This document shows positions 1-64,000 of a stretch of DNA of 64,000 nt, piece after piece. The notes beneath the pieces were generated by a model, which saw nothing but the letters and a program-made list of their open reading frames with translations, was not told where the DNA came from and did no database searches. Position 1 is the stretch's first letter. Every line of letters begins with the position of its first letter. Source of the stretch: Candidatus Absconditabacterales bacterium (lineage in GTDB: Bacteria; Patescibacteriota; Gracilibacteria; Absconditabacterales; Absconditicoccaceae). The translations under genes were made by a program, and so were the position numbers. Location: the NCBI GenBank assembly GCA_025057375.1, contig JANWWO010000004.1:1-64000 (forward strand), in the 5' to 3' direction.

Positions 1-728
1 GATGAGCATCTCGAGATCCTAATGCTATCATTACACAAACACCACCAAAAAACACACAAACATTACCATCTACAACACCAAATCCTACGCCACAGCCTCG
101 TTCTACATCATCATCAGGTTGATGATCTCGTGGATCTGCTCCCAATGTGACGATATCATCACAAGCACAGCAACGCTTTGGATCAGAACAAGTAGAAGCA
201 TTTATACGAGCAAGAGCAAATGGTATCACAACAATAGATGATATGGATGTCTCTAGACCAAATGGTGAACTCCTCAGAAGGGATCTTGCAAAAATGCTGG
301 TAGAATTTAATCGCAATGTCCTCAATAATGATGAAACTATTAATGAATCATGTCGTTTTTGAGATATTGCATGACAAACACAAGAAATGAAAGACTTTAT
401 CATTCGTGCGTGCGAAATGGGATTGATGGGTCTCAAAGCAGATGGAACACCAGACACATTATTCAATCCAAATAATATTGTGACCAGAGCGGAATTTGGA
501 ACTACATTATCAAGAATCTATTTTGGCGATAAATACAATATTGATCTTGATGAACTTCAGAGATTAAATGATAGTGGCGTTCGTCGATATACGCGCCACC
601 TTGAAGCGTTGCAAACACATGGTATTATGAAATTTATTACTCCAGAACGAGCAAATGCATCAGAAAAAAGATGATTGACATGGATTGTGCTTCAAAGGGC
701 AAGCACGCTGCTTACATTCAATAAGTAG
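1..728 (+). CDS. SLH-type surface/secreted protein, C-terminal part (5' end outside window)
   Basis: The reading frame is open from the left edge (first full codon at position 3) to a TAG at 726-728. It opens with a Thr/Pro/Ser-rich stretch, then Ser-Gly repeats spelled partly by TGA codons, then a folded region. That region contains TRAEFGTTLSRIYFGD near base 485 and a second helix pair ending HLEALQTHGIMKF, which is the pattern of an S-layer homology (SLH) module: a conserved R-A-E-F followed by a helix, and a later G-I-M. SLH modules usually tether exported proteins to the cell surface; that is family knowledge. The extracellular location is inferred because the signal peptide lies outside the window. 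The next gene starts 113 bases downstream, so this is probably the end of its own transcript. Confidence 0.7.
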
Positions 729-841
729 TCAGTCATTGTTCTTTTCTTTTGTTGGCATCATAGTCGTTGTGATTATGATGTTTTTTTTGCTTTTTTGAGA
801 AAAGTATATATACTTTGGATGTGTTTTTATGCTTTTTGTAT

Positions 842-1372
842 ATGATGTATCGCTCGCCTTATAAAACTGTTTTTGATTTTTTTATTGTTGCTACTGGTCT
901 TGTTATTGTCTGATCAATTCTTGCACGATGATATGAACGAAAAGTGCAACAAGATATTGCTGAATCTGAACGTACGCTTCAGAGGATGCAAGCTCAATTA
1001 GACCAGATTGGTCAAGCAGATGCTTTTAATAAACTCGAATTTGCAAGAAGCGTAGTCAGACAACAGACTGTCTGAACAAAACGATCAGATCGTATTCAAA
1101 GTATTATTACTATTATTCAACAGTTGCAGTCAGTGAATTTTGGGGGTGATGTGATTCGCTTGTATGATTTTTCGATCAATGCCAACGAATTGGTTATTCA
1201 AGGAGAGACTGTAAATATCGCATTATTGTACCATACAATTCCTGGTTCTCATACGTCACTTTTTGATACATTTAAGAATTTGGATTTTGTACGTCGTTTA
1301 TCTGTCCGTGAATATGAAAGAGCTGGAACGGATAGTGTATGATTTACTTTGACAGCAGAGATTAGTTTTTAG
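842..1372 (+). CDS. PilN-like type IV pilus assembly membrane protein
   Basis: A 176-residue protein beginning at ATG 842 (doublet ATGATG) with a short cytoplasmic tail, one transmembrane helix at about residues 10-25, a helical and probably coiled-coil stalk (residues about 25-85) and a compact C-terminal domain. The topology (single N-terminal helix, coiled coil, small ferredoxin-like domain with a motif like LVIQGETVNIALL) is that of PilN, the inner-membrane alignment subunit of type IV pilus machines. The primary sequence is only weakly informative. The assignment rests on this architecture and on the genes that follow (PilO-like, then PilC). Four TGA codons are read as Gly inside it, one of them in the membrane helix. 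It ends in TAG at 1370-1372, 26 bases before the next start. Confidence 0.55.
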
Positions 1373-1398
1373 ATGCAATTTTATTTTTTCTTGACGGA

Positions 1399-2301
1399 AT
1401 GTTTTGATTTGGATCAAATGATAGTATGCAGATTGCACATACGCCTTTGGATACCGATGGTCAGCTTAATGTAGATAAAAACAGCGCTCACTCATCACAA
1501 ACAATGGCACAAAAAATTTTATCCCAAATTGGGAAAAAGGGAGATGCTCGTAATGTTCCAAGATTCCAAGATGTGAGATACAAAGTTTATAGTTTTTTGA
1601 TGTTTTTGGTTTTTTGGATGGTGACATTTGGTTATGCAGGGATTGGTGGATGGTGAGAAAAAGCATGGATGAGGGTAGAAAATATTTCTACACAAAAACA
1701 GTTGATTATGAAACAAATTGCTGATATTGCTGATACACGTGCAAGGTATAATGCCGATATTGATTTTATAAAATTGTTGGCATGAGTATTGCAACAAACA
1801 GATGGAATCCCTCCTATTGTTTTGTGTCTCAATCGTGAGCAGTCATGTGATGCACTTCCTGCTCAGATCCAAAATAATCTTTCCCTTGTTCGTGCGTTTG
1901 CACAACTTCAGTCTTTGGATAGCCCTAAAATGCTTATTGATGAATGAAAAATTCTCAAAAACATCAATGAGTTTCTTCTTCAGCGTGATCCTCTTGAAAG
2001 ACAGGTTATGTACAATGGGAAAATGAGATCTCTCTCTCTTGGAGAACCAGAACGTATTGAATGATTGCTGTACAAGCTTCCTGTAACAATAGATATTACA
2101 TTCCAATCAAAAGATGATGTGTTTGCATTTCTTCACAATATCGAAAAACGTCTTCATTATACACAAGAAGAATGATTTCAAACCAATCTTATCTATCATA
2201 TCAAAGACTTTACGTACGATGTTCTCAATTTTCAGTCTCCCCAAGATGTAAGAGTTGTTCTTGAGATGTTTTATTACAATTCGAAAAGATTGATTTGGTA
2301 A
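1399..2301 (+). CDS. PilO-like type IV pilus assembly membrane protein
   Basis: A 300-residue product if started at ATG 1399; ATG 1426 is an alternative nine codons later. It has a cytoplasmic segment of about 60 residues, one transmembrane helix (about residues 60-78), a long helical region and a C-terminal domain beginning with PVTIDITF and a helix containing FLHNIEKRL. This is the layout of PilO, which pairs with PilN in the pilus alignment complex. Its position between a PilN-like gene and pilC supports the call. Oddity: the frame stops at TAA 2299-2301 right after YYNSK, while the +2 frame across the same bases continues with a plausible acidic tail (FEKIDLVIDVVIDCDYDE, to a TAG at 2352-2354). 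The true C-terminus may therefore lie in another frame, or a small frameshift is present. Confidence 0.5.
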
Positions 2302-2414
2302 TAGATGTGGTGATTGACTGTGACTATGATGAGATAAGCGTATGGTTGTGATAGGACTGTTTTTATGTGGTTTCTTATGTATCAATCTTGTTCTTTACTC
2401 TCTTTTTACGTTTA

Positions 2415-3503: not shown

Positions 3504-3960
3504 GGATAGATTTGTGTCATTGGTAGTTTTTATGATGAGATTCGTGCAGATCCTTTTTTGGTGTGGTGTGATTTATCGCTATTATAAAAATTGCAAGAAA
3601 AATCCATTACTATGCATATTCTATCAATAATTACGTGAATTACGTTGCATCTTTCTCTCAATGAATGATCGTATAGTGATGGGTAGGTACTTGTTATATT
3701 GCATGACAGACGTCACTTTTCTTGCAAGCTATAAATCTGGATTTTTTCCTTATATGCCGTGTGCTTGAAATTTGTATGTTGTATTATTTTTTTGCATAAC
3801 CATGATTTATTCTAGGATATAAAGATTTTTATTATGATTATAATTATTGGTGGTGCATGTTGAAATATAATAATATAATTAAGATGATTATTTTTTCTCT
3901 TGCAAACGGAAAAGAAAAGTATAGTGTGAGTGCTTAGTTTTTTATTTGTTTCTGTTCCCT
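3504..3960. other. intergenic region, 457 bases
   Basis: No recognisable gene. It contains one short hydrophobic frame (3532-3630, 32 codons, Met-Met-Arg-Phe start) with no support beyond openness. Near the right end is a TTGCAA box (3900-3905) in a TTTTTTCTCTTG context with a TATAGT at 3920-3925. The spacing is only 14 bp, so it is a poor match to the 16-bp promoters seen elsewhere, but it is the likeliest promoter for the SulP gene that starts at 3961. Confidence 0.4.
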
Positions 3961-5601
3961 ATGATAAAAGAGAGCATTATACACTCCTTGCGCACTAACC
4001 GAAAATCATGATTAGCAGTTTCTGTCGTGTCCTTATGTTTATCTATTCCACTGGCTCTTGCAAGTGGCGCAGCTCCTTTGCAGGGTATTATTGCTGCGAT
4101 GCGATGATGATTGTGTGCCGCAATCTGGTGATGATCTCGTTATAATATCATTTGACCAGCATGAGCGTTGACATGATTGTTGTTTACATTCGTTCTTTCG
4201 CATGGTTCCCATCTACTTCCTTTATTGACAATATGTGTTTGATTATGGATTTTTCTTTTTTCATGGTTAAAGATTTCGACAGCGATTACCTCGATCCCTT
4301 CTCCTGTTTTGCATTGATTTATGATTGGTGTGTGAATAACAATTTTGTTGACACAACTCAATAATGCATTGGGATTGGTTGATCTGCCTCAACACATGCA
4401 TCTCATCCCAAATCTTATTGAAACGATCATGCATCGATCATCCATCAATGCTGTCAGTCTGGGGATTTTTCTTTTCTGATTATGATTTTTGGTGGTACGG
4501 AAAAAAATGGGATGGAATATTCCTGGTGTCTTACCCCTTTCTCTTTTTGGTATCATTTGATGATATGTTGCCAATTGATCCCCAGGACTTGTCCTTTTAG
4601 CATCTCAATTTCCAGAGCTACATTTTTCACTTTGGACATGATGGTTCACTTCTCTAACTTCGTGGACTGATCTGCATATGTGGTATGTAGTCCTCACTTC
4701 TTCGTTTGTGATTGCAGCAGTTGCCTTGCTGGAAACGATTATTTCAGCAAAAATTGCTGACCAGAAAACACAGACACAGCATCATCAATGAAATGAGATT
4801 CGTGGATTAGTTCGAGCAAATGTTGTTAATGGTATTTTTGGAGGGATGCCTGTAACAGGAGTTTTTTTGAGGACAGCACTTAATATTGAAGCCTGAGCAC
4901 AATCGTCGTGGTCGCAAGGGATCAATGCAGTCTGTATTATGATCATTGCTTTTTTTTGATTTCAGTATTTTACCTATATTCCTGTAGCGATTGTTGCTGC
5001 CATTTTGATCCATTTGGCATGGTGAATGATTCGTACACCACATTTTTTTGATTTGCGAAATCGTGATCGTTTCGCACGGGGTATTATGTGTACGGTAGCT
5101 CTAGTGACTGTTTTATATGATCCTATGTATGGTATTCTTGCATGAACTAGCATTTCATTGTTGTCATTTTTGAGTAAAGCAAAAAATGGACAGGCACGTG
5201 TTATTGTGTTTCGTCAAGGAATATTTTATAACAAACTGTTATTGGCAACATACAAAAAAAATCCTGACGCTAATGACTGTCTGATTATTAAAATTCCTGA
5301 TTCTTTGTCATTTCTAAATGTATCAACGTTACGTGACGAACTTCGATCTCTTCCCAACACGTACGTGATTTTGTCGTTTTCTCAAGTGTATTCACTTGAT
5401 ATTGATGGGAATGATCTGATAACGTCATATTTGATGATGATGAAAAACAAAGGAAGAGAAGTGCGAATTACTGGTGCCATCTGATGAGTTGAGCATTATG
5501 TTCAGCAGTATGTTATCCAAGGTCTTATTAGTGTTGATCATATTTTCTCATCTACCGCACAAGCATTAAATCAGATTACTTTATTCTCTTGCCCTGTATA
5601 A
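3961..5601 (+). CDS. SulP-family anion transporter with C-terminal STAS-like domain
   Basis: A 546-residue membrane protein of the SulP (SLC26) superfamily. The family signature begins around residue 30 with LALASGAAPLQGIIAA, then NIIGPAGALTGLL, where several glycines are TGA. About ten to twelve hydrophobic helices follow, including LHGFMIGVGITILL and VALLETIISAKIAD. The last 140 residues form a soluble alpha/beta region containing DSLSFLNVSTLRDEL and VILSFSQVYSLD, which fits a STAS domain. Family members move sulfate, bicarbonate or other anions; the substrate here cannot be read from sequence. Start ATG 3961 follows a CT-rich tract. Stop TAA 5599-5601; thymidylate kinase follows after 79 bases. 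A second, more divergent SulP-like gene lies at 56375. Confidence 0.8.
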
Positions 5602-11400: not shown

Positions 11401-11418
11401 GTCTTTCTTGGTGGTGTG

Positions 11419-13265: not shown

Positions 13266-13286
13266 TCATGAGAAGACTGACTTTCT
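13246..13286 (+). terminator. 12-bp hairpin overlapping the rsmH stop
   Basis: AGAAAGTCAGTC (13246-13257) pairs perfectly with GACTGACTTTCT (13275-13286) around a 17-base loop that contains the TAA stop of rsmH. There is no long T tract, so it may be a weak terminator or mRNA-stabilising hairpin. Confidence 0.5.
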
Positions 13287-14247: not shown

Positions 14248-14280
14248 ATTGATACATTGAGATAGATAGAGGGATATGTT

Positions 14281-14825: not shown

Positions 14826-15263
14826 TTAGTTTTGCTGGTTATATTGCTTGTATATGTCTGGATACATGGCCTGGAAATAGTTTTTTACATCTCACCACGT
14901 TGGTTCTTGTATGGATTGTTTTTTTAGCCACTTAAAAAACTTTGTATGTCACTCCATATTAGATGATTCACAGTATTGACGGAATGCTGTATATGCATTA
15001 TCAATACATGTTTGTTGTGATTGATCAGCTTTGGGATCGGTGATTGCGATGACGACTTTTGCAACACGATACTCTCGACGAGTAGACTCTATACCAAATG
15101 CTCTTGCAAATCGTCATTTTATCTGTCTTCCTAATCTTTGGAGCCCAGTTCCGTAATTAGTTAAAGTATCTATCTCAAGAGTTCTCTTATCGAATTGTGA
15201 TGCATTGCTAGGTGATGGAAGATTATCACTAACGCGAAACATTTGTTTCCATACATCTCACAT
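14826..15263 (-). CDS. unknown 145-residue protein
   Basis: Not recognised. The minus-strand frame runs from ATG at 15261-15263 to TAA at 14826-14828 with four TGA-Gly codons, giving a basic, soluble protein with no membrane segment. The start lies 40 bases from the -10 box of a well-formed promoter (15305-15332), which supports that it is expressed. Central sequence YRVAKVVIAITDPKAD suggests an alpha/beta core; the C-terminal part is rich in Gln, Tyr and Trp. It precedes the helical protein at 14281 in an apparent two-gene operon downstream of htpG. An opposing 48-codon hydrophobic frame on the plus strand across its 3' end is probably a shadow. Confidence 0.6.
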
Positions 15264-15332: not shown

Positions 15333-15371
15333 GAGAAAAAATGCCATATCTATTCGTACGACCCACTTTCT

Positions 15372-17318
15372 TTACACCACCAATTGATTGACTCTGTCAA
15401 GAAACTCTGTCACATTGACATCACCTCCTTCCAGCATTGTTGCTTGATCAGCGAGCAATTTGGCCATCATCTCTGTTTTGGGATCATGTGGTTGTTCTTG
15501 ATGCATCGCCTCGAACTTTTTGACCACATGATGATTGGGGTTGAGCATCAAAGTTTTTTTTCCTTCTTGGACTGCGTGCCCCATCGCTTTGAGAACTTTT
15601 TGCATCTGGGCAGATTGAGAAGACTCCTTACTGACAAACATTGCAGGGACAGTACCGAGTTTGGAGCTATATTGGATTTTTTCGACATTGTAGCTCGTGA
15701 GTTTGCCTTGAAGATACGCAATAATATTTTTTTGCTCTTTCGTGAGATCCAAAGACTCATCTTCAAACAAGGTCGCATCACTTGCAAGTTTGAATGGATG
15801 TCCTTTGTGTTCTCTGAGTTGTTGGAGGACATACTCATCGATGGGATCAGTGACAAAAATCATTGGCTGACCAGTGTTTTTTCTTGCATACGGACTCTGG
15901 TGGAGTTCGGAAATCGATGTTCCGACAAGATACAAAATCGGTTTTTTGATGTTGTCAGTATCTTTTTTTTCATTGTTTGTCTCATTTTTACTCGCACTCT
16001 CTCCCTCGCTTTCTGCAGGGACAAACGCATCCAAATCGGTAAATTCTTGCTTGTCTGCGTTGTAAAATAATGCAACTTCTGAAATTTTTTCTCTATTTGA
16101 CCAATCGTTTGCCATTCCCTCTTTGAGATGACGTCAGAAATTGTCAAAAAATGTTTTATAGTCAGCAAATGCTTTTTTCTTTTTCCATGCCAGCGATTTC
16201 ATCACTTCTTTGACGAGTGATTGTTGGAGTTTTTGGATGACGGGAGAATCTTGCAAAATCTCACGAGAGACATTGAGATCGACATCATTGGTTTCGACTA
16301 CTCATTTGACAAATCTCAGCCAATTAGGAAGCAAATGCTTACATTTTTGCATAATCAAAACATTTTGGACATAGAGGTCTGGTCATCGAGAATCTGGGTC
16401 ATTATCAAACATAAAAGCAGGTTTTTTTTTCGGAATATAGAGTAAGCACTTGTAGCTCAGTCATCCTTCGGTATGGACATGAATGATATCAAGAGGTTCA
16501 TCATCACTCCAAAATAATGATTTTCCAAATTCCTTGTATTCCTCTTCTTTAACATCCGCTTTACGCTTGGTCCAAATTGCTTGCATTGCGTTTACTTGTT
16601 CTCGTTGGTCTTTTTGTACTTTCCCGTCTTTGTCTTTTGCGTTCATAAAAATCGGCGTGGGTATGTAATTGCTGTGTTTTTTTATAATAGATGAAATTTT
16701 CCAATGATTAGCAAATTCTGCTGATGCTTCATTGAGATAGATGGTAATGGTTGTTCCTCTGTCTTTTCTTGTTCCATCGCTAATTGTATATACACCTTTT
16801 CCATCACTTGTCCACAATTTTGCATCTGATCCGTGTTTTTTTGAGTCTACTTCGACCTTGGATGCAACCATAAAGACAGAATAAAACCCAATTCCAAACT
16901 GTCCAATCAAATCATGTCAGGCAGGATTTTTTTCGTCTTTTTTGTCTTTGTTGATCTCAGCGAGTTTGGAAAGAAAGGCTTTGGTTCATGAATTTGCAAT
17001 TGTTCATAGATTTTTTTGCATATCGTCTGCATTCATTCAGATTCCATTATCCATTATCGTTATCGTTTTCGCTTCTTCATCTACGCTAATACGAATTTCT
17101 GGCTCACCTAGTTCGCCGACTTCGTCAGTATGGAGGGACAAAATTTTGGCTTTTTGGATAGCATCGTTTGCATTGGCAATGAGCTCTCTGAGGAAAATTT
17201 CTTTGGTCGAATATATCGAATGCGTCACTAATTGGATCAATTGTCCTACATCAGCGGAAAAATCAAACTGATTAGAATGTGATACATGTTTGTCATCATG
17301 AGAAGTTTTTTTTGCCAT
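15372..17318 (-). CDS. htpG: molecular chaperone HtpG (bacterial Hsp90)
   Basis: A 648-residue ATP-dependent chaperone, close to the 620-640 residues usual for HtpG. The GHKL ATPase domain is plain: FSADVGQLIQLVTHSIYSTK at residue 18, LRELIANANDAIQKAK with the catalytic Glu and ATP-binding Asn, TIMDNGI, and later IGQFGIGFYSVFMVA. The middle domain shows DEPLDIIHVHTEG and the C-terminal domain ends with the dimerisation helices (LADQATMLEGGDVNVTEFLDRVNQLVV). The N-terminus carries about 15 extra polar residues before the ATPase domain. Expression is probably heat-shock controlled: the promoter 40 bases upstream has a CIRCE-like inverted repeat across the start region. ATG at 17316-17318, stop at 15372-15374. 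Confidence 0.95.
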
Positions 17319-17337
17319 GGTGATATGATAAAATAAA

Positions 17338-17387
17338 AGCACTTTATGTTTGTAGGTGCTATATACTAATTTCGAGATGAAAATCAA
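17338..17387 (-). promoter_or_regulatory. htpG promoter with CIRCE-like operator
   Basis: Minus strand: TTGATT (17387-17382), 16 bp, TATATA (17365-17360). Overlapping the -10 edge is an inverted repeat AGCAC-N13-GTGCT (17338-17360). The HrcA operator CIRCE has the same AGCAC/GTGCT cores with exactly 13 bp between them, although the outer bases here differ. Confidence 0.6.
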
Positions 17388-17488
17388 GAGAAAATTTGCA
17401 CTTGTTTTTTGTTTGAGAAAGTATATATAGAGATAATAATCTGATTGCTGTCTCTTCATACGCTCCTCTGTTGTGGTACAAAAAAATT

Positions 17489-19558
17489 ATGTATAAGAAA
17501 AAAGAGCGTTATCACTTTATTGTTTATCGTATTGCTGCCATGCAAGATTCTCTCCTCAATGGTGTTTTTGACACTGATTATACAGGGTATGTTCCTGATG
17601 GTGGCTATCCTATTCTACCAACATGAAAACCAAGCGACAATCGATGGGATCGTATCGTCAAAGCTTGGTCAGCAATGATTTTTTCTACTCCAAAAAAAAC
17701 AAGCAATACACCATCCAAGGTCAATACAAAAGCTGTTGGCAAGCAACCTCTTGCGGTTCAGATCCAGACATTGCTTGCTCTTCCTGATGATGAATATAGT
17801 GATTCGTTGCTAACAAGCGAGATGAGAAAATATATTCTTGATACTGAGCGTCAGTATGCTGCGACGTTATCATCGTACAAATCACATATTGCACCATCTT
17901 ACTGGCAAGTCGAATGATCCAAAATGCAGATATCCTGAATGTTTGCCAAGTCGTATTATGTGCATGATTTTCCTAGTTATGTCGAAGCGTTGTGGACGAG
18001 AGAGGTGATTGGTTTTGGGTGAAAATTTGATCGAAGCTATTTTTTGTACAAAAATGATAACTCAAGTATCCAAACTACAATGAGAGCAAAAGCAACGATG
18101 ATCAAAGCAGAAATTAATGAAGCAATGAGAAAGGGGATTACCTTGGATTCTGAACTTGAACTGAGGTATAGAGATATTGAAATGATCAGACAAAAGCTTG
18201 CAACGCATGAAGAATCATATTTTGAACTTGGTATGTATCTAACAATCTATCATGAGGAACAAGATAAACTGACTGAATTGGGGAAAAGGCTTGAACAAGT
18301 ATTTTCGTGAATTGGTATTCTTATCAAACCTGCAATCCAAAGAATGGATGAGGGCTTTAATGCAACATTAGCATTATGTAAAGATGACATGGGCGTGACG
18401 AGATCTGCTATTACATCATCGATTGCAGGTAGTTTTCCTTTTGTATCATCAGATTTGATGACCAAAACAGGTATTTTGTATGGAATCAATTTACATACGT
18501 GATCATTGGTGATTTTTGATAGATTTAATTCAGATCTTCCCAATATGAATAGCATTGTCCTTGCAACATCGTGAGCTGGTAAATCATTTACTGTCAAACT
18601 AGAAATCATGAGATATATGATGAATGGGGTATATGTAATGGTTATTGATCCAGAAAATGAATACAAAGCTTTGTGCGAAAAGCTCGGTGGAACGTATATT
18701 TCACTTTCAACTAGCTCAACTGACTATATCAATCCCTTTGATTTACCTCCAAAAATAGACGACAGAGAATATGGACCTGGTGATCTTTTGAGAGGAAAGA
18801 TCTTAGATTTGATTTGATTGATCAAAATTTTGGTATGAGGATTGGATGCGATGGAAGAGGCATTGATGGATAAAGCACTCCAACTAACCTATCAACTCAA
18901 AGGAATCTCTTTGCAGGATGAAGATCCAACGGGGAAAGAAATGCCACGTATGGTTGATTTGTATAACGTGTTGGACGGGATGGATGGGGGAGAACAGATG
19001 GCAATGAAACTTTCCAAATTTGTTACCTGATCATTTGCGAATATTTTTAATAATTTTACGACTATTGATGTCACGAATCAGTTGACAGTCTTTTGTATCA
19101 GGGATTTGGAAGATGTTCTCAAAACACCAGTGATGTACAATATTCTCAATTTTGTCTGGACCAAAGTGAGAGCGCAAAAAAGAAAGAGACTTCTCGTATG
19201 TGATGAGGCACGGATTATGCTTCAACATGATGTCAGTGCCAATTTTTTGTTCGGATTGGTCAAAAGAGCAAGAAAATATTGACTAGGAATCACGACAATT
19301 AGCCAAGATATTGAAGATTTTATGAGAAGCCAATATGGAAAACCAATTTTGTCCAATTCTCCTTTCCAGATTCTTCTGAAACAATCAACTACATCGATGA
19401 AAGTGTTGAGCGATATGTTGGGGTTATCAGAAGCAGAAAAACATAGATTGGTTTCAGCCTGAGTAGGGGAGTGACTTATGTTTGCTGGTAACCAACATGT
19501 AGCAGTTAAAATTCTGGCTTCACCAGGAGAAAAAGATTTTTTGACAACTGATGTCTAA
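17489..19558 (+). CDS. VirB4-type T4SS/conjugation ATPase
   Basis: A 689-residue protein of the VirB4/TraE ATPase family that powers type IV secretion or DNA transfer. The N-terminal half has a proline/lysine-rich linker (residues about 65-95) and a helical region. The C-terminal half is a RecA-like ATPase: Walker A LATSGAGKSFT near residue 355 (Gly as TGA), VMVIDPENEYKAL just after it, Walker B RLLVCDEARIML near residue 568, and GLGITTISQDIEDFM plus ILSNSPFQILLKQS, the usual VirB4 tail motifs. Start ATG 17489. The final bases ATGTCTAA overlap the start of the glycosyltransferase gene by 8 bp, indicating translational coupling. No full virB cluster is present; a TraC-like N-domain protein lies at 27778. 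Confidence 0.82.
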
Positions 19559-25254: not shown

Positions 25255-25722
25255 TTAGTAACGAGGTACAAAGCGTGATCATCATGTTAATCCAAGCTCA
25301 TCAATGAGTCATGCATTGATTTCAAGCACATATCTACTTGCAATCCCTGGTCATTGACTAGGACATTGAATTGTGTCAGAAGGGCAGGGCTGTGCATTGA
25401 GCCATGTGCCTACGATAGTCCATTCATCATCTAGTCGTATAATGTCTAAAGGTATCAAGGTATTTTTCATCCAAAAAAAGGTTATCTGTGGCTCTCAAAA
25501 ATCAAAAAGCATTCCTTCATTGGGGGGGAGATATGATACATTCATAAGACCTTGTTCTCTTTCTTGTGGTGTCGTTGCATAACGAAGAAGAAAGCACCTA
25601 TTACCACTACATAGTTCGCGAGGAAGAGTGTGAGTTATGTGACTAGTAACAAGAGGGTCAGTATGGTGAGACACACATCAATGCATAAGAAAAACAATAA
25701 CAAAGCATAAAAAATATCTCAT
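25255..25722 (-). CDS. DUF192-family lipoprotein
   Basis: A 155-residue protein with a lipoprotein signal peptide (RYFLCFVIVFLMHGC; lipobox Leu-Met-His-Gly-Cys, Gly as TGA, Cys at residue 17). The mature part is a DUF192 domain: RYATTPQEREQGLMNVSYLP, EGMLFDFGEPQITFFWMKNTLIPLDIIRLD and GIASRYVLEINAGL. The F.M.NTL.PLD.I motif is the family hallmark. The biochemical role of DUF192 is unknown; it is usually exported and anchored. Promoter boxes at 25758-25785 lie 35-60 bases upstream of the start at 25722. The membrane protein at 24770-25228 follows in the same direction. Confidence 0.85.
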
Positions 25723-25757
25723 CAATGATGATGGAATAAAAAGATTACCATTGGATA

Positions 25758-25785
25758 AATATAGTTTTTTTTTCTCAAATTGCAA
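25758..25785 (-). promoter_or_regulatory. predicted promoter for DUF192 lipoprotein
   Basis: Minus strand TTGCAA (25785-25780), 16 bp, TATATT (25763-25758). The rest of 25723-25991 holds no convincing gene; one open minus-strand frame with His-rich text is unsupported. Confidence 0.55.
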
Positions 25786-25991
25786 GATCAAGCTGAGCTA
25801 TAAGAGAATTGTGCGTATCAGAAGAGGAAGGGAAGGAGAAGTAAGGTATTGATACATGATTTAGGTGGGGAACGATGATGATGTTGATGAGTCCAAAAAG
25901 TAGCTATGGGTTGTCTTGTGATCAATTAAACACGATTATATTAATTGTAGTAAAACACTGCATTATCACGTAAAAGGGGGACAGCATATGT

Positions 25992-27197
25992 TTATGTATG
26001 TGTTTCATCAAGTGGATGAAGAGAAGGGAATGCGATAAGCTCATTGATACACAGACATCGCTTTCTCAGAGGTCGTGGAATACGCTGCGAACGTGCATAT
26101 TCAGTCAGTGTATATTTTTTTCCTTTGATGGTAATTGATGAAGCATGATATCGTTGTCGTCATCACCATACAGAAGGAAGTCAGGGGAAAAACGCAGAAA
26201 TTTGTGTTCGAAGTGTTTGATCAAGAACTGGTGGCGTGATCCAGCAGGGAGTTGATGAGCGGAGTATCCATCGATTATCATGCATACGGAGCCAGTAAAG
26301 TTTTCCTTGATGGAATCGTTTTCCTATACGTAGACGAGAGAGAGTATTACGCAGTGTCTGGAGCATAGCACGAGAAAGATTGTGATATGAACCACATCGA
26401 CGCATGATGCGAACTAATTCATCAATAGTATCCCATGGTCCAGAGAGCGGAACTGTTCGAAGGAGAATATCATGTCCAAAAGGATGTGTTCGAGCAGTGA
26501 TGGATGAGTGGGGGAGTATAATGTGATCGTATAGTCCATCTATATCGTGGCGTAATCTTATCAGAGCATCTTTGAGGTTTGGTTTTATGGTGTTTCTGAG
26601 TCGATTTCTTTCGCTGACGCTACTATCTGTGTTTGTTGGATCATAATGATAGGGCAGTTTATGATAGTCACAGTAGGAGACAAGCTTGTGTTTGGGGAAA
26701 AAAATAAATGGTCTGACAATAATGATACGAGGATCCAAAAAGTGACGATCGATGAGGGGGAGAGCAACGAGTCATGCAAGTTTACAGCCACGCATGAGAT
26801 GAAGAAGCATTGTTTCACATTGGTCATCTTGATGGTGCCCTATCATGAGGAGTGATGAGTTGTGCTCCTGCATTGTTGTCATAAAACACTGGTGTCTTCG
26901 TATTCTCAACGATCTTTCATCTTGTGACAGTGTTGGATCACGATAATGGGAATATCGATTGATATGATGATCACGACATCGCTGAGCAACATCGGCAAGC
27001 TCTTTGTCCGCAGAGGCTCTTCCATGATGGCAGCTTACTACGAGTAACGTAACCGGAAGATGTTCTGTCCTAATAAGATGTGTAACTCGATGCAACAAGG
27101 CAAACGAATCAGGTCATCATGAGCATCCTATCGTCCAACGTGTGTATTTACTAGCAAGGTCGTGACACAAGGGAACAAGTCTTGGATCAGACAGCAT
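25992..27197 (-). CDS. tilS: tRNA(Ile)-lysidine synthase
   Basis: A 401-residue PP-loop enzyme that converts the wobble C34 of tRNA-Ile(CAU) to lysidine so that it reads AUA, an essential step. The ATP-binding motif SGGPDS is at residues 26-31, with both Gly written as TGA. VSCHHGRASADKELADV, LRIRRHQCF, MIGHHQDDQCETMLLHLMRG and, later, KLPYHYDPTNTDSSVSERNRLRN follow in TilS order (the last contains the N-rich motif before the C-terminal domain). The start is placed at ATG 27195-27197 (Met-Leu-Ser-Asp), 25 residues before SGG. The frame stays open further upstream, but that region is occupied by the divergent ruvX. Stop TAA at 25992-25994. Confidence 0.9.
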
Positions 27198-27331
27198 GTG
27201 TATGACCAAAAAGTAAAAGTATCCAAAGATAACTATGAATGTAATGATTTCTATACAAAATGCAATCTTTTTGCTTGCATTACTAGATTTTTTTCGTATA
27301 GTCCTTTGTGTTTTATCTTGCACAGTGGTTG

Positions 27332-27727
27332 ATGGAGTGATGAAAACGTCGTTTTTTATGACTTGATCGATGAACCTCGTGCATTGGACGAGCGCATGCA
27401 TGGGAGGATTGATTAGTGTTGCTGGGTGGATGTATTGATAATGATGAAACAGCATTTCCAACGATAGGATCAATCCTTGTATCATGACACTATACTGACA
27501 TTGTCATTGGGCAACCCAAAGAACATAATAGACTTTCGAGGCGTTTTGAAAAATTTGTTCATGATTTGCAGTATCTTGGGTCTGAATTGACGATTCATCG
27601 TGTTGATGAGACGTACTCGTCTGTCATGGCAAGAGATATTCTTGCCTCTTACCAAAAGTCAATTTATGATGACGCGGTCAGTGCGATGGTTATTCTTCAG
27701 CGTTTTTTTGATCATCGTCCATCATAA
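27332..27727 (+). CDS. ruvX: YqgF/RuvX Holliday-junction resolvase-like nuclease
   Basis: A 131-residue RNase H-fold protein of the YqgF family, proposed to process pre-16S rRNA. It begins with RRFLGLDRGTSCIGRA (the GxDxGxxxxG motif, catalytic Asp at residue 12). Then come VSGHYTDIVIGQPKE, matching the conserved GxP strand, VDETYSSVMA (D-E-x-x-S/T) and DDAVSAMVILQRF (D-x-x-A/S). The length is normal for the family. The start ATG 27332 is reconstructed across four TGA glycines (Met-Glu-Gly-Gly; GLDRG). It diverges from tilS with a 134-base gap and is followed by the TraC-like gene after 50 bases. Confidence 0.88.
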
Positions 27728-33600: not shown

Positions 33601-33868
33601 TGCGGGGTCGCTCAAGTCTGCTGTCATACCGACCACTCACGTACAGTCTCCGTCCTCATCTTCAGTGTTTGAGTCAAATGCGGAATTTGAGGTATTTGAA
33701 GATGGTGAGAAAAAAAATAAGATCTGACAGTCAGTGTCGACCAGATCGAAGTTGAGACCTAATGACAAAGTGACTGTTCGCTATCATAATGGAACCTATG
33801 AGTATGATATCAAATACAAAAAAGTAAAAGACGATATTGAACAGGGGAAATGCGAGATCGTATGATAG
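30638..33868 (+). CDS. secA: preprotein translocase ATPase SecA
   Basis: A 1076-residue SecA motor, long for the family (about 900 in E. coli). NBD1 shows [25 protein letters not shown] (the second Gly of LIGGM is a TGA codon) and [34 protein letters not shown]. After a charged insertion ([20 protein letters not shown], about residues 275-310) the protein resumes with [42 protein letters not shown], and NBD2 motifs including [12 protein letters not shown] and ATNMAGRGTDI-type text. The helical scaffold and wing domains follow ([29 protein letters not shown]). The tail is extended by a linker and about 50 residues without the zinc-binding Cys motif. The acidic insertion and long tail account for the extra length. 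Confidence 0.95.
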
Positions 33869-36933: not shown

Positions 36934-39177
36934 TTATATTTTCTCCTCCCCTACTTCCTGTAGTAGATGCATTTCTAGTCTTCTGACGCTAAATTTCGGG
37001 TTATCAAATTTGACGATACATACGCCTTTCCACGCCTCAATCACTGTCCCCTTCCCAAATAATGCATGTTTGACTCTGTCTCCTTCCTCAAAGGTTTTTT
37101 TGGTATACTTGCTTGATCATGAGGTCGATGCACCCTGAAGATCGTAGGATTTGATGAGATCAGCAGGAATCTCTTTGATAAATCTGGAGGGAGGATTGGA
37201 TATAGTGCGTCATCGTGTCATTCTTGTATTAGCATACGAAAGAAAAAGATAGTCTTGGGCCCTGGTGATGGCAACATACATCAATCTTCTCTCTTCTTCC
37301 ATTTTTTTATCATCCAATCTGGCGTCTTGCATCGGGAACAAATTATCCTCCAATCACACGATGAAGACGGTCGGAAATTCCAATCATTTGGAGGCATGGA
37401 TCGTCATCAATTTGATCGCATTGACGTGATCTCACTCTTGTCCGGCAATATCAGTCAAAAGCGTGATTTCATCAAGATAAGACTCCAATGCAGTCAGTCA
37501 TCATGCTGTTTCTGCTTCATCACGAAATTTTTCGGCCATGTTGATCAACTGCCCAATATTCTCAAATTTTTCTTGTCCTCATTCTTCTCATTCGTGTTTG
37601 ATCAAATACTGTTTGTAAGCAATATCTGTTACTATCCTGTCAATAATATCTCAGGGTGCTGTATTATGTGCGACCATAGCAAGCCAACGATTAGCCATTT
37701 GTGTCCATTGTTCTAGCGCAGACGTGGCACGAGTGGTTATACCGAGAGAAAAATACGATCACTGACTGATCAGGTCTCGAACAGATTGGTTGATACGTTT
37801 TGCTTCCTCACTTAGTAGGGTTCGTGTTGTATCGCTGATCCCGCGTGTAGGAAGATTGATAATTCTTTCTAGTGCCATATTGTCCTTCGGATTACGCACA
37901 AAACGAGCATACGCAAGAATATCTTTTACTTCTGACCTCTCAAAAAATTTGTACGCTCCAAATACTTTGTAGGGAATTCCTTCTTGGATGCATATTTTTT
38001 CAAATATAGATGATTGAGCATTGGTCCTATACAATATCGCAAAATCGCCCCGGTCACAACCTTTGTCGATCTTCTGCGTGCGAAGTTTACGAATCATCGC
38101 TAAAATATTGATCGCTTCAGCTGTTTCGTCAGGATGATTGAGTAAAACTAGATGATCACGCCCCTCTCTATGAGCGTGGACTGTTTTGTCGTATTGATGA
38201 CGATTGTTTTTGATGATCGTATTCGCTGCTTCGATAATATGCGGACGAGAACGATAATTGGTGACGAGCAAAAAAGATTTCATATCAGGCCAGTATTTTT
38301 GCAGATTAAGAAAATGGTCCATGACAGCTCATCTCCAGCCATAAATCGATTGAAAATCATCACCAATAAACGTGATATTCCCTGTGTCACCTGTCAACAT
38401 TTTCATCAAAAGAAATTGGATCTCGTTGGTGTCTTGTGCTTCATCGACGAGAATAAATTTGAAACGTTCTTGCCATTTACGCAACACATCAGGATGTAAA
38501 CGAAACAACAAAAACGGCAAAAGCAGCAAATCATCAAAATCAAGAGAATTTGCTTGGATGAGTGTATGTTGATATTCTTGGTAAATGAGAAAAATGGTTT
38601 GGTCATAGTCGTTTTTGACATCTTTTTTGTAACTTGCTGGATCTTTTCCCTCATTTTTTAGTCTACTAATGATATTTTTGATTTCCCTGGGTTCAAACAC
38701 TGTTTCTGCATGTTGATTTTTGAGAACTGTTTTGATAATTTTGGCTGTATCAGTTGTATCATAAATCCCAAAGCTTTTTGTATAGCCCAATCCTAGCTGT
38801 TCGATGTCGTGTTTGAGAATTTTGAGAAAGAGCGAGTGGAAGGTTCCAATCCATGGGAAACGAATATCGTGATATTTGTGCATCAAATCTTGGGAAATTT
38901 CCGCAGGGAGACTGTCGATAATTGTACGTAATCTTTCGCTCATTTCCTTTGCAGCTTTGTTCGTAAATGTCACTGCCATAATTTGGGATGGAGATGCGTG
39001 ACCATCAATTACAAGGTGGGCAATCTTGTAGGTCAGTGCTCTTGTTTTTCCCGATCATGCAGCAGCAAGAATGAGTGATGATCATGCTGTATATATTACA
39101 GCGTTGTATTGTTCATCATTGAGGAGGGGACGAAAGAGCGAAGACATAGGCACGGGTGAATAAAGGAGATAATTCAT
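36934..39177 (-). CDS. UvrD/PcrA-type superfamily 1 DNA helicase
   Basis: A 747-residue 3'-5' helicase. Walker A is [19 protein letters not shown] (residues about 38-56), followed by [14 protein letters not shown] (motif Ia), [28 protein letters not shown] (motif II), [11 protein letters not shown] (motif III), [13 protein letters not shown] (motif IV), and [12 protein letters not shown] with later [14 protein letters not shown]. The C-terminus has a small Tudor-like domain ([20 protein letters not shown]) that PcrA uses to contact RNA polymerase. The start is ATG 39175-39177, immediately after the TAA of the upstream minus-strand gene (TAA-T-ATG), implying coupling. Stop TAA at 36934-36936. 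Confidence 0.93.
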
Positions 39178-39178
39178 A

Positions 39179-39529
39179 TTAATCAGAATGTCTATGGTGA
39201 GGAGCTTGTCATTGCATATAAATATCAGGATCGCCAAAACTTAGACGATCTGATAAGGGTTGATCTAATCCAAAGGAGGCGCATTGATGCTTCCATTGAG
39301 TAAGGATATCATGTCGATGCAGACGAATAAGTCTTTGAAGGTGAAAGTGATGGGTAAGGATGCGAATTGTCATTGTTTTGCATTGGACAAAGAGATGAGG
39401 ATAGGGAATGTGTGGATACAGTGATGCAAGATGCGTGATAATGATTTTTTGGAGAAAAAGTGCAGCGATATGACGCTGTCAGCGTTTTTTGATAATAGAG
39501 GAAACAACTGTCTGAGCGAGTGTTTTCAT
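39179..39529 (-). CDS. small protein of unknown function, faintly DciA/DUF721-like
   Basis: A 116-residue basic protein from ATG 39527-39529 to TAA 39179-39181. The first half is a helix rich in Ile/Lys/Arg (VVSSIIKKRGQRHIAAL), and the middle has a short beta-type segment LFVQCKTMTIRILTHHFHLQRLI. A basic helical start followed by a strand-rich middle is how DUF721/DciA proteins (helicase loaders) look, but the resemblance is weak and I do not assign it. Its stop is one base from the uvrD start, so the two are almost certainly translated from one mRNA. The next gene upstream (HupE/NicO fusion) ends 34 bases away. Confidence 0.55.
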
Positions 39530-42180: not shown

Positions 42181-42512
42181 CGACGTTTTTCACAAAGGAA
42201 ATGAGCAGCGTCTCATCGAGTAAACGTCACTTTCTCCCTACACGTGAAAGAATGTGAACGAAGAGAGAAAAAAACTGATCGTGCATCTATCAAAACATTG
42301 TATACAATGATATTCTCCCCTTAAAAAGAAAAAGGAAGGAGAACATATATTATTTTTCTTCTTTCTCTGGGTGAAAAACCTATTCATTTCACATGTGACA
42401 ATTTGTATTTTTGTATATGTTTGCTAGTCTAGAGCCTTATTATTTTTATTCATAACTATCAAAAATTTACACATAATCTTTGCTACATATCGAATATCAT
42501 CCAATCTCTGAG

Positions 42513-52170: not shown

Positions 52171-54732
52171 TTATTTCATCAGCTCTGCAATAATTTTTGG
52201 TTCAAGTGTGTTATGGATATAGGCAGAAATTGGTCTTGCTCCAAATTGTGGATTATAGATCTCATCAATAATTGTATCGATTTCCTTTGATGACAGTTTG
52301 GGCAACGTTAATGTTGGATGTGCCTGTTTCCATAGATGCAAAAAATTTTTTCGTTGTGCCTGAAAAATTTCTTTCATTATCAATTTACTCAACGGACGAA
52401 ACACAATTTTGTAATCAATTCTATTGAGCAACTCTGGACTAAGTTTGTCTTTGACAATATCAAGTATCCTTGTTTGTATCGCTGCAAATTCTTTTGTCTC
52501 AGCATCTGCCACTGATTTTTTGGTTGTACCAAACCCGATGCTGTGTTGTTTTTTTGCAAATTCTGTATGTCCTATATTTGATGTCATAATAATAACTGTT
52601 GATTTGAATGAAATAAGTCTTCCTTTTGAATCTTTGAGATGTCATTCATCGAGAATTTGAAGAAGAATATTGAGAACATCGGGATCTGCTTTTTCAATCT
52701 CATCAAAGAGAACGACAGAATATGGTTGTCTTCTGACAGCTTCCGTCAGTACTCATCATGATTCAAATCCTACATATCATGGTGCAGATCAAAGAAGTTT
52801 AGACACTGAGTATTTTTCCATAAATTCTGACATATCTACTCTTATCAAGGCTTTTTCATCACCAAAATACTCTTTTGCCAGCATTTTTGCACAAAACGTT
52901 TTCCCGACTCCTGATGGTCCCAAAAAAAGAAACGATGCAATGGGTTTATTTTTTGGAATTACAGAAAGTCTATTTCTCTGCATTGTTGAAACAATTGCTT
53001 TGACAGCTTCATCTTGTCCTTTGATGGCAATACTCATTTGTGTATGGAGTCTTTTGAGTTTTGCAATTTCATCTTCATTGACAATAGATGTAGGTAATCA
53101 CATTTTGTCAGCAAGGACTTGACCAATATCAAGTCATGTCACAACTGGCCTCAAGTGATGAGGTACGGTATGAGCCTGTTTGAGGTCCAAGAGAGATTGT
53201 TTAAGGCTTTCTTGTTCTTTTTTGAGTGTTGCAGCTGTATAATAATCTTGATCTTCGACGCACTGTGCAACACGAAGATCAATTTCTTCTATTTTTTTGA
53301 CAATTTCTTGATATTGATCGTCTATCTCTGTTTTTGCAAGAAGTGTTGATTTTCTTGCTCCTGCCTCATCAATAACATCAATTGCTTTATCAGGCAGAAA
53401 TTTGTTGAGTACATATCTTGATGTCAATGCAATTGCCTGATCAATAGCTTCGTCTGTAATACTCACGCCGTGAAAATCCTCATATCTTGAACGTAGTCAG
53501 AGAAGTATTTTTTTTGTATCAGCATGAGTAGGTTCATTCACATGGATTTCTTGAAATCTTCTTTTGAGAGCAGCATCCTTTTCGATATGTTTTTGGAATT
53601 CATCAAACGTCGTGGCCCCAATAAGTTTGATTTTCCCCCTTGCAAGCATTGGTTTGATCAACTGTGCTGCATCATCAGTTCCATTTGCTCCACCAGCACC
53701 AATAATTGTGTGTAACTCATCAATAAACAAAATAATATTATTAACTGGATCGGCGGCCTCATCGAGGATAGTCTTAAACCTTGTTTCAAAATCACCTCTA
53801 TATTTGGTTCCTGCAACAAGCGTCCCCATATCCAACGTAAAAATTCTTTTGTTTTTAAGTTTTTCAGGGACATCGCCAGCAACAATCTTCATCGCTAGTC
53901 ATTCAACAATCGCTGTTTTCCCTACTCACGCCTCCCCTATCAATAAAGGATTGTTTTTAGATTTACGCAAAAGCGTATAAATCACTTGATCAAGTTCTTT
54001 ATCACGTCATATACAGGGATCCAAACGTCCATGACGAGCATCATCAGTAATATCTGTCCCAAAATATTCACAGGCAAGCTTCGTGTCATCTTTTTTACCT
54101 TTTTTCTTAGACGTCGATGATCACCCACTATCGTTTCCTACTTCAATAACATCAACATCATCACTACTTGATCAGATCACAACTCACGAAATACCATCGG
54201 TGCCAACCATGTCAACAAGTTGAACCATATCAACAGCATCAATGGGTAAATTGAGTGATGTAAGAATAGTTCCCATTTTGTCCATAAAAGTATAAAGAGG
54301 AATTTCCATTTTTGCTAGACGTTTGATAAGGTTTGTGAGACCATAGAGTACTTTATCAAAATCATTATTGACGAAAAGATCGTGTTGTAACGACGGTGAA
54401 AGATGATGAGCAGAAACATACAGCAATGCTGCAACATCAACAAAGTTTTGGTATTCAAGAAGAAGATTGAGAACAACACTATCAATAGGAAGACTTGTAT
54501 AGTCATGAATCTCAGGAAGAGAAAAATCACCGATATGGCATTTGGCAGCCAGAGAATCTTTGAATGCATGAAGGTCCTGAATACCAACCATTTTCCATAA
54601 CATATCAGCGTACGGATGAGCTGTGATTTTCCATGCTGATGACAAGAAAATGTGATCAGCAGAAATAGGATGTCACTCAGTCATGACCGTTGCAAGATTG
54701 AGAACATCACGTGCATGAGGAGTATAATTCAT
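52171..54732 (-). CDS. clpC: ClpC/ClpB-type AAA+ unfoldase
   Basis: An 853-residue double-AAA+ chaperone. The N-domain (residues about 1-150, [22 protein letters not shown]) is divergent. AAA-1 begins [41 protein letters not shown] and includes [20 protein letters not shown] and [25 protein letters not shown] short middle domain of ClpC length (not the long ClpB coil) follows. AAA-2 has [63 protein letters not shown] and [15 protein letters not shown]. The C-terminus shows [14 protein letters not shown] (sensor-2). It unfolds proteins for ClpP if a tripeptide loop is present; I did not confirm a P-loop of the (L/I)GF type. ATG 54730-54732; promoter at 54762-54789. Confidence 0.92.
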
Positions 54733-54761
54733 GAAGTACACAAAGGATAAAAATCGTCTTT

Positions 54762-60709: not shown

Positions 60710-60742
60710 AGTAATCAAAAAAGTAAAAAACTATAATCATAT

Positions 60743-61330
60743 TTATCCTCGAGTAGGATCGGCCATGAACGTATGAATAGCATGGTCTACCTGTTTTTTG
60801 ACATCTTCTAAAGACTGACGTGCATCAATCAAATAATGACACAAATTTCTTGCTTGATTTCTTTCATATTCTGCACTTTTAAGACGCGATTCAAGCTCTT
60901 CCATTGCCATATCAGGTTGACGTTGAAGCATTCTTATAGTCATAGTCGTATCGTCAATATCCAAAAAAATCGTACGACATTTTGGGCCAAAAAAACTGTC
61001 ATGTCTGACTTTTTCTCGTCCCAAAATTTCCAATTCTTTAATAGCAATTTTGTTTTGTTCCCATGTTTTAATTACACGATCACGTTTGGTTCAATAATAC
61101 CAACGATCATGTACCAACGCATATTCCAAAAACTCATCTGCAGCAATTCATGCACGAAATTCGTCTTCAGTCAAAAAGTCATATTTTTCTCCTTGTTTTT
61201 CTCCTGTTCTCATGGGTCTCGTCACACATGAATTGATATATGCAAACTGTGTATTGGTTAAAATATGACTCATGATAGTTGTTTTTCACGATCACGATAC
61301 TCCCATAAGAAAAAGGAGACGATTAGGCAT
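60743..61330 (-). CDS. gmk: guanylate kinase
   Basis: A 195-residue GMP kinase (GMP + ATP to GDP + ADP). P-loop GVSGSGKTT at residues 10-18, with two Gly written TGA, then SCVTRPMRTGEKQGEKYDFLTEDEF (the S-x-T-R-x-x-R/G-E GMP-binding strand) and EYALVHDRWYYGTKRDRV (E-x-x-x-V-x-x-x-Y-G-T). The C-terminal helix bundle ends YLIDARQSLEDVKKQVDHAI. The standard-code reading would hide the P-loop altogether. ATG 61328-61330; TAA 60743-60745. It is sandwiched between serS and the Ser/Pro-rich gene, all on the minus strand with gaps of 33 and 26 bases. Confidence 0.93.
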
Positions 61331-61356
61331 ACGATGGCATGATAAGAGCTAAAAAT

Positions 61357-61857: not shown

Positions 61858-61891
61858 AAAAAAGAACAAATAAAATAAAAAAATGATCTAT

Positions 61892-61916
61892 TAGACAACA
61901 CACATTGTCTCTTTTT
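61892..61916. terminator. hairpin between dnaN and the next gene
   Basis: AGACAA and TTGTCT (61892-61897, 61904-61909) form a 6-bp stem. T6 follows on the plus strand; on the minus strand the stem is followed, after nine bases, by T7, so it may end the dnaN transcript. Confidence 0.5.
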
Positions 61917-61934
61917 TCACATGCAATTTAACGA

Positions 61935-63080
61935 CTATACTTTGATCGGTCTTGCAATCGCAACAAAGGCAGGATCAGCAGGATCAAGCATCTTGACAGG
62001 AGTTGTTTCATCATTAAATCCAAGGATCATGCGCCCATTGATGATTTTGCATACGTCAGCAAGATGCTTGGTAAAGAGGCATATATGAGGAATATCTCAC
62101 TCCTGTGTACATGTTACATATGCAACAGAATCTCCTTTATCAACCTTTCCCGTACTCAACTTCAATAAACCTTCATCAATACTCAAAAAGACATGTTTTT
62201 TGTTATCTTTAGCGAGAATATCGATCTTACGGAGTTGTTTTTCAAAGAGTGCTGTCTCAAGTAGCAATGAGCTACGATAGGTGGGCGGCATAATTTTGGG
62301 ATTGTGATAGTCAGGAAAATTACCTTGAATTGTAATCGTTGAAATATAAATTGTTGTCTGACCAATACTCGTTTCTCGACCCAATAGATTAGAGCCAACA
62401 TGTAATGTAGAAAGCGGATCAATATCATCACTTACCAATCATGCGGCAACATGAGCAATATCAAGAGCAGATGATTTTGGAATAGAGACTTTGATAGATG
62501 TTGTCGAATCCAATGTCAATGAATACTCAGCCAAAAGTTGCGTATCTGTTCCTACAAAATACAAACGATTGGTTCCCTGATCATCAGTTTTGGTCCACAA
62601 ATAAATTCCCCCGTAAATGGGCGTATATGATTTTTCTATACAAGCAAATCAAACCTTATTGATCCCACGAGCAAGAGAAGAGCAAGAAATGTTTATATGT
62701 TGTGCCTCAGTAAGGGTAGGCAAAGCAACATAGTCAGACGCTGGGAGTGTTTTGATACTAAAAGTATCTTTTCCGGATGAGATTATCAGTGTTTCGGTAT
62801 CAGCATTATATGCAATACCAATATCTCCATCGGCACATGCATGCAGAATATCAACCAAAAGTTTTGCATTCACAGTCCATGATCAAGTGCCCTGAGCAAC
62901 GACTGGCGTTGTTATCAAACAATATTTTTCCATATCAGTTGCTTTGAGTGTCATAACACCATCCGTAATATCTCGATACATATTTTGGAGAATAGGAAGT
63001 GTCGAGTTTTTTGAGGCAAATCTCATAACTGTATCACACAAAGGACTAAGAACAGACAAAGGAAGACGAAACTGCATCAT
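61935..63080 (-). CDS. dnaN: DNA polymerase III beta subunit (sliding clamp)
   Basis: A 381-residue sliding clamp, the usual length for the family. The three-domain fold is recognisable: domain 1 LPLSVLSPLCDTVMRFASKNSTLPIL with later ATDMEKYCL and VVAQGTGSWTVNAKLLVDIL; domain 2 SCSSLARGINKVGFACIEKSYTPIYGGIYLW (the L-x-x-x-I-x-K-x-x-F-A-x-x-x-x-x-x-P-x-x-x-G-I motif); domain 3 GRETSIGQTTIYISTITIQGNFPDYHNPKIMP. It ends with a short tail, KMLDPADPAFVAIARPIKV. ATG 63078-63080 (a GTG and a second ATG flank it); TAG 61935-61937. The promoter at 63123-63150 lies inside the 3' end of the rluA-like gene. Confidence 0.93.
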
Positions 63081-63122
63081 CACACCGAAAAGATAAAAGT
63101 AGCACTACATCTCTAATGAAAA

Positions 63123-63150
63123 TCTATAAGAAAAATTTAGTCTGATGCAA
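63123..63150 (-). promoter_or_regulatory. predicted promoter for dnaN
   Basis: Minus strand TTGCAT (63150-63145) in TTTTCTC context, 16 bp, TATAGA (63128-63123). The -35 lies within the last codons of the upstream gene. Confidence 0.65.
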
Positions 63151-63844
63151 GAGAAAATGCCACGGGTATTGCATCAGGGAGATTTGTGTATCACATACAA
63201 CTCAAAGATATGTGATCTGGTTCCTGACGATGGAGATAGGCTGGATGATTAGATGGGATATAGAGATTGTCTCCAACAATAGGAAATCCTAGTAGTTGAA
63301 GATGGCAACGAATTTGATGCCTAAATCCGCGCTGAATTTCACAGCGAATCAGTGAAATATTGGTTGATTGATCATAATCACAGACTTCATAAAGCGTTTC
63401 TGTCCAATATCGTTTTTTCCCTTGCTGACGATTTTTTGCTGTTTGAACAATAACACGGACTGGGTCATCACGATGCTGTGCCAAAAAACATGCAATAACT
63501 CCATACGAACAAGAAGGACGTCAATAAACCGTAGCATAATATATTTTGGTTATCAATCAGGCATCTTGTTTTTCTTTGTAGGTATGATATGCAAGACGAT
63601 TTTTTGCAAATAACACAAGTCATGAGGTACAGACATCTAATCTGACGACCAGTCATCACTCAGGAAGTGTCCGATCAAGAAGGGTCTGTGGGTGCTTTTT
63701 TTCTTGTGGTGTATACCAAAAAAGATCAAAGAGACTGACACGTTTTCAAGGCACGCTTGCTATTCAAGAAGGCTTCCAGACATAGTATCGATTGGATGTC
63801 TCATAATATCTAAGAGGATGATGGGAAACGGGATCAGCACGCAT
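63137..63844 (-). CDS. RluA-family 23S rRNA pseudouridine synthase
   Basis: A 235-residue pseudouridine synthase of the RluA group. The catalytic motif RLDVCTSGLVLFAK (Asp in R-L-D-x-x-T-S-G) occurs near residue 73, preceded by PEGGLVV. The C-terminal part shows IRCEIQRGFRHQIRCHLQLLGFPIVGDNLY, the conserved R-H-Q-I-R and G-D motifs. No S4 domain precedes it. The start is ATG 63842-63844; the frame is closed upstream by TAG. It overlaps the end of the zinc-ribbon gene by 35 bases on the same strand. TAA 63137-63139, next to the dnaN promoter. Confidence 0.9.
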
Positions 63845-64000
63845 GGCAATAACGGACGTCTAAAAAATTGGCTGCTTGACAATGATGACATGTTTTTTTT
63901 ACATGATAGCCACATGATCCACAATAAGATACTTGCACAGCATGACTTGTCTGACATGATGGACATATAAGACGATCCTCACCGTCACGATCCCATTTAT
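63810..64000 (-). CDS. double zinc-ribbon protein, C-terminal part (5' end outside window)
   Basis: A minus-strand frame open from the window edge to TAG 63810-63812. The last 50 residues contain four C-x-x-C knuckles: CPSC, CGSC, CHHC, CHAC, in the spacing of a DZR (double zinc ribbon) domain. Only the C-terminal 60 residues are visible, so the rest of the protein is unknown. The downstream rluA-like gene begins inside its last 12 codons, indicating coupled translation. Confidence 0.65.

Follow-up and report, generated by a model that had tools for sequence, protein, structure and literature searches.

The Absconditabacteria (SR1) were predicted in 2021 to use a genetic code that departs from the standard one in two respects, with UGA read as glycine and both CGA and CGG read as tryptophan (Shulgina and Eddy, PMC8629427). 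Papers of 2023 and 2026 still annotate the group with NCBI code 25, in which UGA is the only reassigned codon. Here we analyzed the code of a stretch of 64,000 nucleotides (hereinafter the window), which forms positions 1-64000 of contig C16 in a genome of 1,129,355 bases and 21 contigs (97% complete; five small contigs of 4.2 kilobases (kb) are N). The closest named relative of the ClpB/ClpC-type chaperone encoded in the window is from a metagenome-assembled genome of candidate division SR1 (55% identity, the next being 47% or less, in a search with this one gene); no other family of the order to which the genome belongs is represented among the sampled genomes, and by these sequence relationships the organism probably belongs to the Absconditabacteria (SR1) lineage. 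The comparisons reported below indicate that the organism, a probable member of this lineage, almost certainly translates UGA as glycine and CGA and CGG as tryptophan, by means of the loss of release factor 2 (RF2) and a set of dedicated tRNAs. We take this code to be NCBI translation table 37.

Like the code described in PMC8629427, that of the window genome has all three reassignments, tRNAs of the same types for UGA, CGA and CGG (tRNA(UCA), tRNA(UCG) and tRNA(CCG)), a tRNA(GCG) for CGU and CGC, and a low guanine-plus-cytosine content (38.5%). In keeping with membership, CGA and CGG both occur at tryptophan positions, the tRNAs for these codons are of the tryptophan type, a tRNA-Gly(UCA) is present, and no RF2 was found in the genome. 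Since the same code was predicted in that study, the finding is already known, and both the UGA and the CGA/CGG changes have been described for Absconditabacteria. With code 25 the window genome shares UGA as glycine, UAA and UAG as stops and the lack of RF2; it differs in CGA and CGG, which do not have the standard meaning that code 25 prescribes for every codon but UGA. A first-pass annotation of the window had held that code 25 must be applied to it; this was right for UGA but overlooked the recoding of CGA and CGG, for which homology, tRNA identity elements and family-wide alignment columns all point to tryptophan, and code 25 is hence an incomplete description. Its use turns each CGA- or CGG-encoded tryptophan of the lineage into arginine. 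Active sites, predicted structures and phylogenies are corrupted as a result, and the second code change goes unseen.

CGA and CGG at tryptophan positions

Codon meanings were assessed genome-wide by masking TGA, CGA and CGG as X, aligning the resulting proteins to references, and counting the reference residue wherever local identity was good. The references were a large part of G039, a genome of the same class with the standard code and two release factors, and seven regions of E. coli K-12; likelihoods were compared across residues codon by codon against both. Antisense open reading frames (ORFs) and ORFs over rRNA were filtered out before the final tabulation. Apart from these three codons, none departs from its standard meaning; ATG was also flagged and was dismissed, as methionine has a single codon and leaving it out leaves no model.

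The likelihoods flag both CGA and CGG as tryptophan. Against G039, CGA aligns with Trp at 52, Tyr at 18, Phe at 17 and Arg at 8 of 162 positions, and unlike CGT it hardly ever stands at Arg or Lys. Four of the eight arginine cases fall in false ORFs (C20, 29.6-31.7 kb, where the DNA matches the 23S rRNA gene of E. coli), and their removal leaves about four. Of these, one lies in a broken pyruvate kinase gene, and the others are in poor alignments. A first tabulation (Trp 40, Arg 31, together with TGG at Arg) had suggested ambiguous decoding of CGA; its arginine cases came mostly from antisense and rRNA ORFs aligned together, and as the count falls to 8 upon filtering, ambiguous decoding is not needed. 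CGG aligns with Trp at 7 of 21 positions against G039, a small sample whose sites include invariant tryptophans of RpoB (QRFGEMEV[CGG]ALEAY) and ribosomal protein L2 (GKAGRQR[CGG]L). For CGA, a comparable site is FKFSTYAT[CGA]WI in a sigma factor, and further clear cases of CGA or CGG at Trp occur in ThyA and MsrA (all these gene names being read from motifs). The clearest case in the window is the CGG in the Walker B motif of a VirB4/TraG-like ATPase (Table 1), where RLLVCDEA[CGG]IMLQ aligns to RFLVIDEAWNLMQ in G039.

These codons carry about half of the inferred tryptophans in conserved contexts (CGA and CGG together 183, TGG 190). Isoleucyl-tRNA synthetase (IleRS), chosen for the family survey because of its many conserved tryptophans, has 23 conserved Trp columns in the window genome, of which 11 are written CGA and 8 TGG. 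Among conserved-context codons, CGA usage amounts to 44 per 10,000 in the alignments to G039 and 30 per 10,000 in those to E. coli; in whole ORFs it is 60 per 10,000. CGA is thereby more frequent than in most values given in PMC8629427 and reaches or passes the maximum of 37 per 10,000 Pfam-aligned codons stated there, but as the measures are not identical this constitutes at most a modest extension of that work.

The tRNA set is consistent with these codon profiles. Within the family, the acceptor end of tRNA(CCG) is A1:U72 followed by G73, and position 20 is U instead of A; tRNA(UCG) likewise has G73 and U20, with an end pair that is G1:C72 in the window genome, A1:U72 in G006 and G1:U72 in G021. 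By comparison, tRNA(CCG) of G039 and of genomes from the sister family f22 shows the arginine pattern (G1:C72, A73, and A20 where clear), and the arginine tRNAs GCG, UCU and CCU retain A20. The idea that tRNA(UCG) is confined to the window genome was dropped, as the full tRNA sets of two relatives also hold it, with G37.

The chief competing explanation is that plain code 25 applies, such that only UGA is reassigned and CGA and CGG still specify arginine. It is the code in literature use for this group, and some Pfam matches in the window score slightly higher with arginine at CGA/CGG (UPF0020, 86.7 versus 80.3 bits; NicO, 39.5 versus 37.1 bits). Several further observations weigh against tryptophan: CGG is scarce (21 and 10 aligned positions), so that its assignment rests on fewer sites together with the tRNA; CGA and CGG sites in the window are few; across ten window genes the Pfam scores shift both ways when arginine is replaced by tryptophan (six up, four down), albeit in a weak test; and tRNA(UCG) of the window genome has G1:C72 and not the weak tryptophan element A/G1:U72. 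The window by itself provides thin evidence because it holds few conserved tryptophan positions, and the case is carried by the whole genome and the family. There, CGA aligns with Trp, Tyr and Phe, the cognate tRNAs are of the tryptophan type, and IleRS from 29 genomes of the same family has CGA or CGG at 104 conserved-Trp cells and at none of the conserved-Arg cells (totals being sums over per-genome rows). Moreover, the Pfam scores that improve with tryptophan are those of SulP, TraG, UPPS, TilS, MraW and DUF4010. We accordingly regard arginine at these codons as very unlikely.

UGA as glycine and termination at UAA and UAG

The central claim of the first-pass annotation, that UGA is recoded to glycine throughout, is borne out genome-wide. 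TGA aligns with glycine at 668 of 939 conserved-context positions against G039 and at 296 of 403 against E. coli, its residue profile matches that of GGA, and the runner-up residue trails glycine by 1457 and 644 log units, respectively. In the window, ORFs delimited by TAA and TAG alone contain 496 in-frame TGA codons (25.1 per 1000). Glycine stands opposite these codons at 40 of 52 positions in the G039 comparison and at 11 of 18 in that with E. coli, a rate about equal to that of GGA in the same genes (32/44 and 13/17). Gene by gene, glycine is found at 6 of 7 aligned TGA codons in SecA (at glycines of E. coli SecA), 6 of 7 in UvrD, 3 of 4 in guanylate kinase (Gmk), 2 of 2 in TilS and 9 of 10 in ClpB/C. 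In the last of these, 10 of the 11 TGA columns with good coverage hold 92-100% glycine among 79 standard-code taxa, and TGA writes 10 of the 39 columns with a glycine majority in these taxa. Many families can be followed along their length only if TGA is read through, among them SecA, UvrD, ClpB/C, Hsp90, an AcrB-type transporter, SulP, MraW, guanylate kinase and the DUF192 protein. Assignment of UGA to glycine is thus confirmed at the level of comparative sequence analysis.

Most gene-level statements in the earlier annotation stood up as well. SulP is intact only with TGA as sense, the P-loop of Gmk contains TGA glycines (Table 1), and both glycines of the TilS PP-loop SGGPDS are written TGA in the translation. 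Of two genes said to be hidden by the standard code, that at 25255 encodes a DUF192 protein, and that at 14826 needs TGA as a sense codon to stay open and has no family match. RuvX, said to have TGA at invariant glycines and an N-terminus hidden by the standard code, was not found in two motif scans and a Pfam search of the larger ORFs, the RuvX model not having been run on every frame.

As had been proposed, termination uses TAA and TAG: every selected ORF ending within the window closes with one of the two, and for 121 of 129 genes the predicted C-terminus falls no more than 15 residues from that of the reference (TAA 79, TAG 50). The predicted lack of RF2 also agrees with the gene content, as a single class-I release factor gene was detected in this 97%-complete genome, and it contains the PAT motif. 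This motif is diagnostic of RF1, which acts at UAA and UAG. The catalytic GGQ of this RF1 (C17 near 42282-42863) has its two glycines written as consecutive TGA codons, so that the factor could not be made unless UGA is a sense codon. The tRNA-Gly(UCA) expected elsewhere in the genome is present, too. ARAGORN calls it a selenocysteine tRNA from the anticodon alone, but it has a normal short variable arm and a GCGAGCA...TGCTCGC acceptor with U73, and it agrees with the glycine criteria of PMC8629427 (identity elements G1:C72, C2:G71, G3:C70 and U73).

That the in-frame TGA codons stem from decayed genes, from errors in the sequence or from a stop in part-time use has a precedent in the window, where the pyruvate kinase gene near 13270-14150 looks frameshifted. 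Yet TGA makes up roughly one codon in 40 and lies at glycine columns of essential genes across the genome and the family; a tRNA that fits it is present, RF2 has been lost, and the C-termini are explained without any gene ending in TGA. This explanation is hence highly improbable. Reading of UGA as tryptophan (code 4) or another residue, for which one might argue because tryptophan is the target of most bacterial UGA reassignments (PMC8629427), has a negligible chance of being correct given glycine rather than tryptophan at the TGA columns, the above likelihood leads, and the glycine-type acceptor and U73 of tRNA(UCA).

For the code with UGA as glycine and CGA/CGG as tryptophan, we propose a mechanism in which RF2 has been lost, RF1 alone terminates at UAA and UAG, and UGA is decoded by the dedicated tRNA(UCA) with its glycine identity elements. 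CGA and CGG would be decoded by tRNA(UCG) and tRNA(CCG), presumably charged by the product of the one tryptophanyl-tRNA synthetase gene in the genome, since both tRNAs lack the arginine determinant A20 and carry the tryptophan discriminator G73. Arginine would be served by the tRNAs GCG (for CGU/CGC) and UCU and CCU (for AGA/AGG). In this scheme, sequence shows what the codons mean, that RF2 is absent and which tRNAs are present, and the synthetase-tRNA pairing is deduced from identity rules.

Related families and the order of the changes

All genomes of the same family with a match have exactly one class-I release factor gene, as do the three Gracilibacteria-like sister families f14, f22 and f24; the number is two in most of the remaining families of the class. 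In most members of the sister families TGA occurs inside genes at glycine columns, as in the window genome. In contrast to the latter, their CGA and CGG codons stand at arginine columns (in IleRS, 46 conserved-Arg and 2 conserved-Trp cells), and the examined CCG and UCG tRNAs are of the arginine type except in G185. The IleRS survey therefore suggests that UGA as glycine is common to several families, and CGA/CGG as tryptophan a property of the window organism's family. The earlier assumption of one code for Gracilibacteria and Absconditabacteria consequently fails, since single-release-factor families of the class differ on CGA and CGG. The exception, G185 (f14, locus L349), has a tryptophan-type tRNA(CCG) with A1:U72 and G73, and a single CGG of its IleRS gene occupies a conserved Trp column, whereas other f14 members read CGA as arginine; it fits a remark in PMC8629427 that tryptophan may be the meaning of CGG in some Gracilibacteria.

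On balance, we lean toward a stepwise history in which UGA was first reassigned to glycine and the capture of arginine codons by tryptophan came later. CGA and CGG would have become fixed as tryptophan codons in the whole Absconditabacterial family, with CGA rivaling UGG in some genomes (e.g., that of the window), and CGG would be read as tryptophan also in at least one sister-family member (G185), independently or by descent. With this family and its sisters it becomes testable whether UGA was reassigned before CGA and CGG.

Two near-complete genomes, G038 (family f16) and G065 (family f20), have one class-I release factor match, yet their IleRS genes are without TGA; this could be release factor loss without recoding or a missed gene. 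The IleRS gene of the window genome (C20:6788-11092, minus strand; an ORF of 1435 amino acids) has a His_Phos_1 domain (163 bits, residues 707-863) between the synthetase parts, and the stretch with this inserted histidine phosphatase domain is covered by alignments to several further genomes of the class.

Genes of the window

The features are collected in Table 1. The true start of HtpG probably lies inside the listed ORF, and the real start of TilS probably well inside its own.

Table 1. Features of the window, with Pfam scores and counts of reassigned codons in frame
Feature	Position	Strand	Details
SulP/STAS sulfate permease family gene	3946..5601	+	Sulfate_transp 172 bits with CGA/CGG as Trp, 161 as Arg; 24 TGA, 7 CGA, 2 CGG
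ORF without recognised family, open only if TGA is sense	14826..15263	-	4 TGA
HtpG (Hsp90) gene	15372..17459	-	HSP90 273.6 bits; 8 TGA
VirB4/TraG-like ATPase gene	17279-19558	+	CGG at the Trp of Walker B motif DEAW, 19211..19213
DUF192 gene	25255..25791	-	DUF192 97.9 bits; 6 TGA
TilS ORF	25992..27662	-	ATP_bind_3 124 bits, residues 176-357; 16 CGA
SecA gene	30638..33868	+	SecA_DEAD 370.8 bits; 19 TGA
UvrD/PcrA helicase gene	36934..39237	-	UvrD-helicase 269.6 bits; 14 TGA
ClpB/ClpC-type AAA+ chaperone gene	52171..54741	-	AAA_2; 15 TGA
Guanylate kinase (Gmk) gene	60743-61330	-	Guanylate_kin 80.9 bits
Gmk P-loop GVSGSGKT (extended GVSGSGKTT)	61280..61303	-	Two of its glycines are TGA

The pyruvate kinase coding sequence (~13270-14150, plus strand) is spread across several frames, with a Pfam PK match of 169 bits in the piece 13366-13869, and is therefore probably a pseudogene or a stretch of assembly errors; a conserved arginine in it accounts for one of the few cases of CGA opposite Arg. 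Simple ORF calling at this site yields instead the antisense ORFs 13362-13829 and 13847-14257 (minus strand). Similarly, an ORF of 312 amino acids at 15350-16288 (minus strand) is a shadow, in another frame, of the real gene HtpG. The genome has many such long shadow ORFs, open when TGA is sense, and they lead ORF calling astray.

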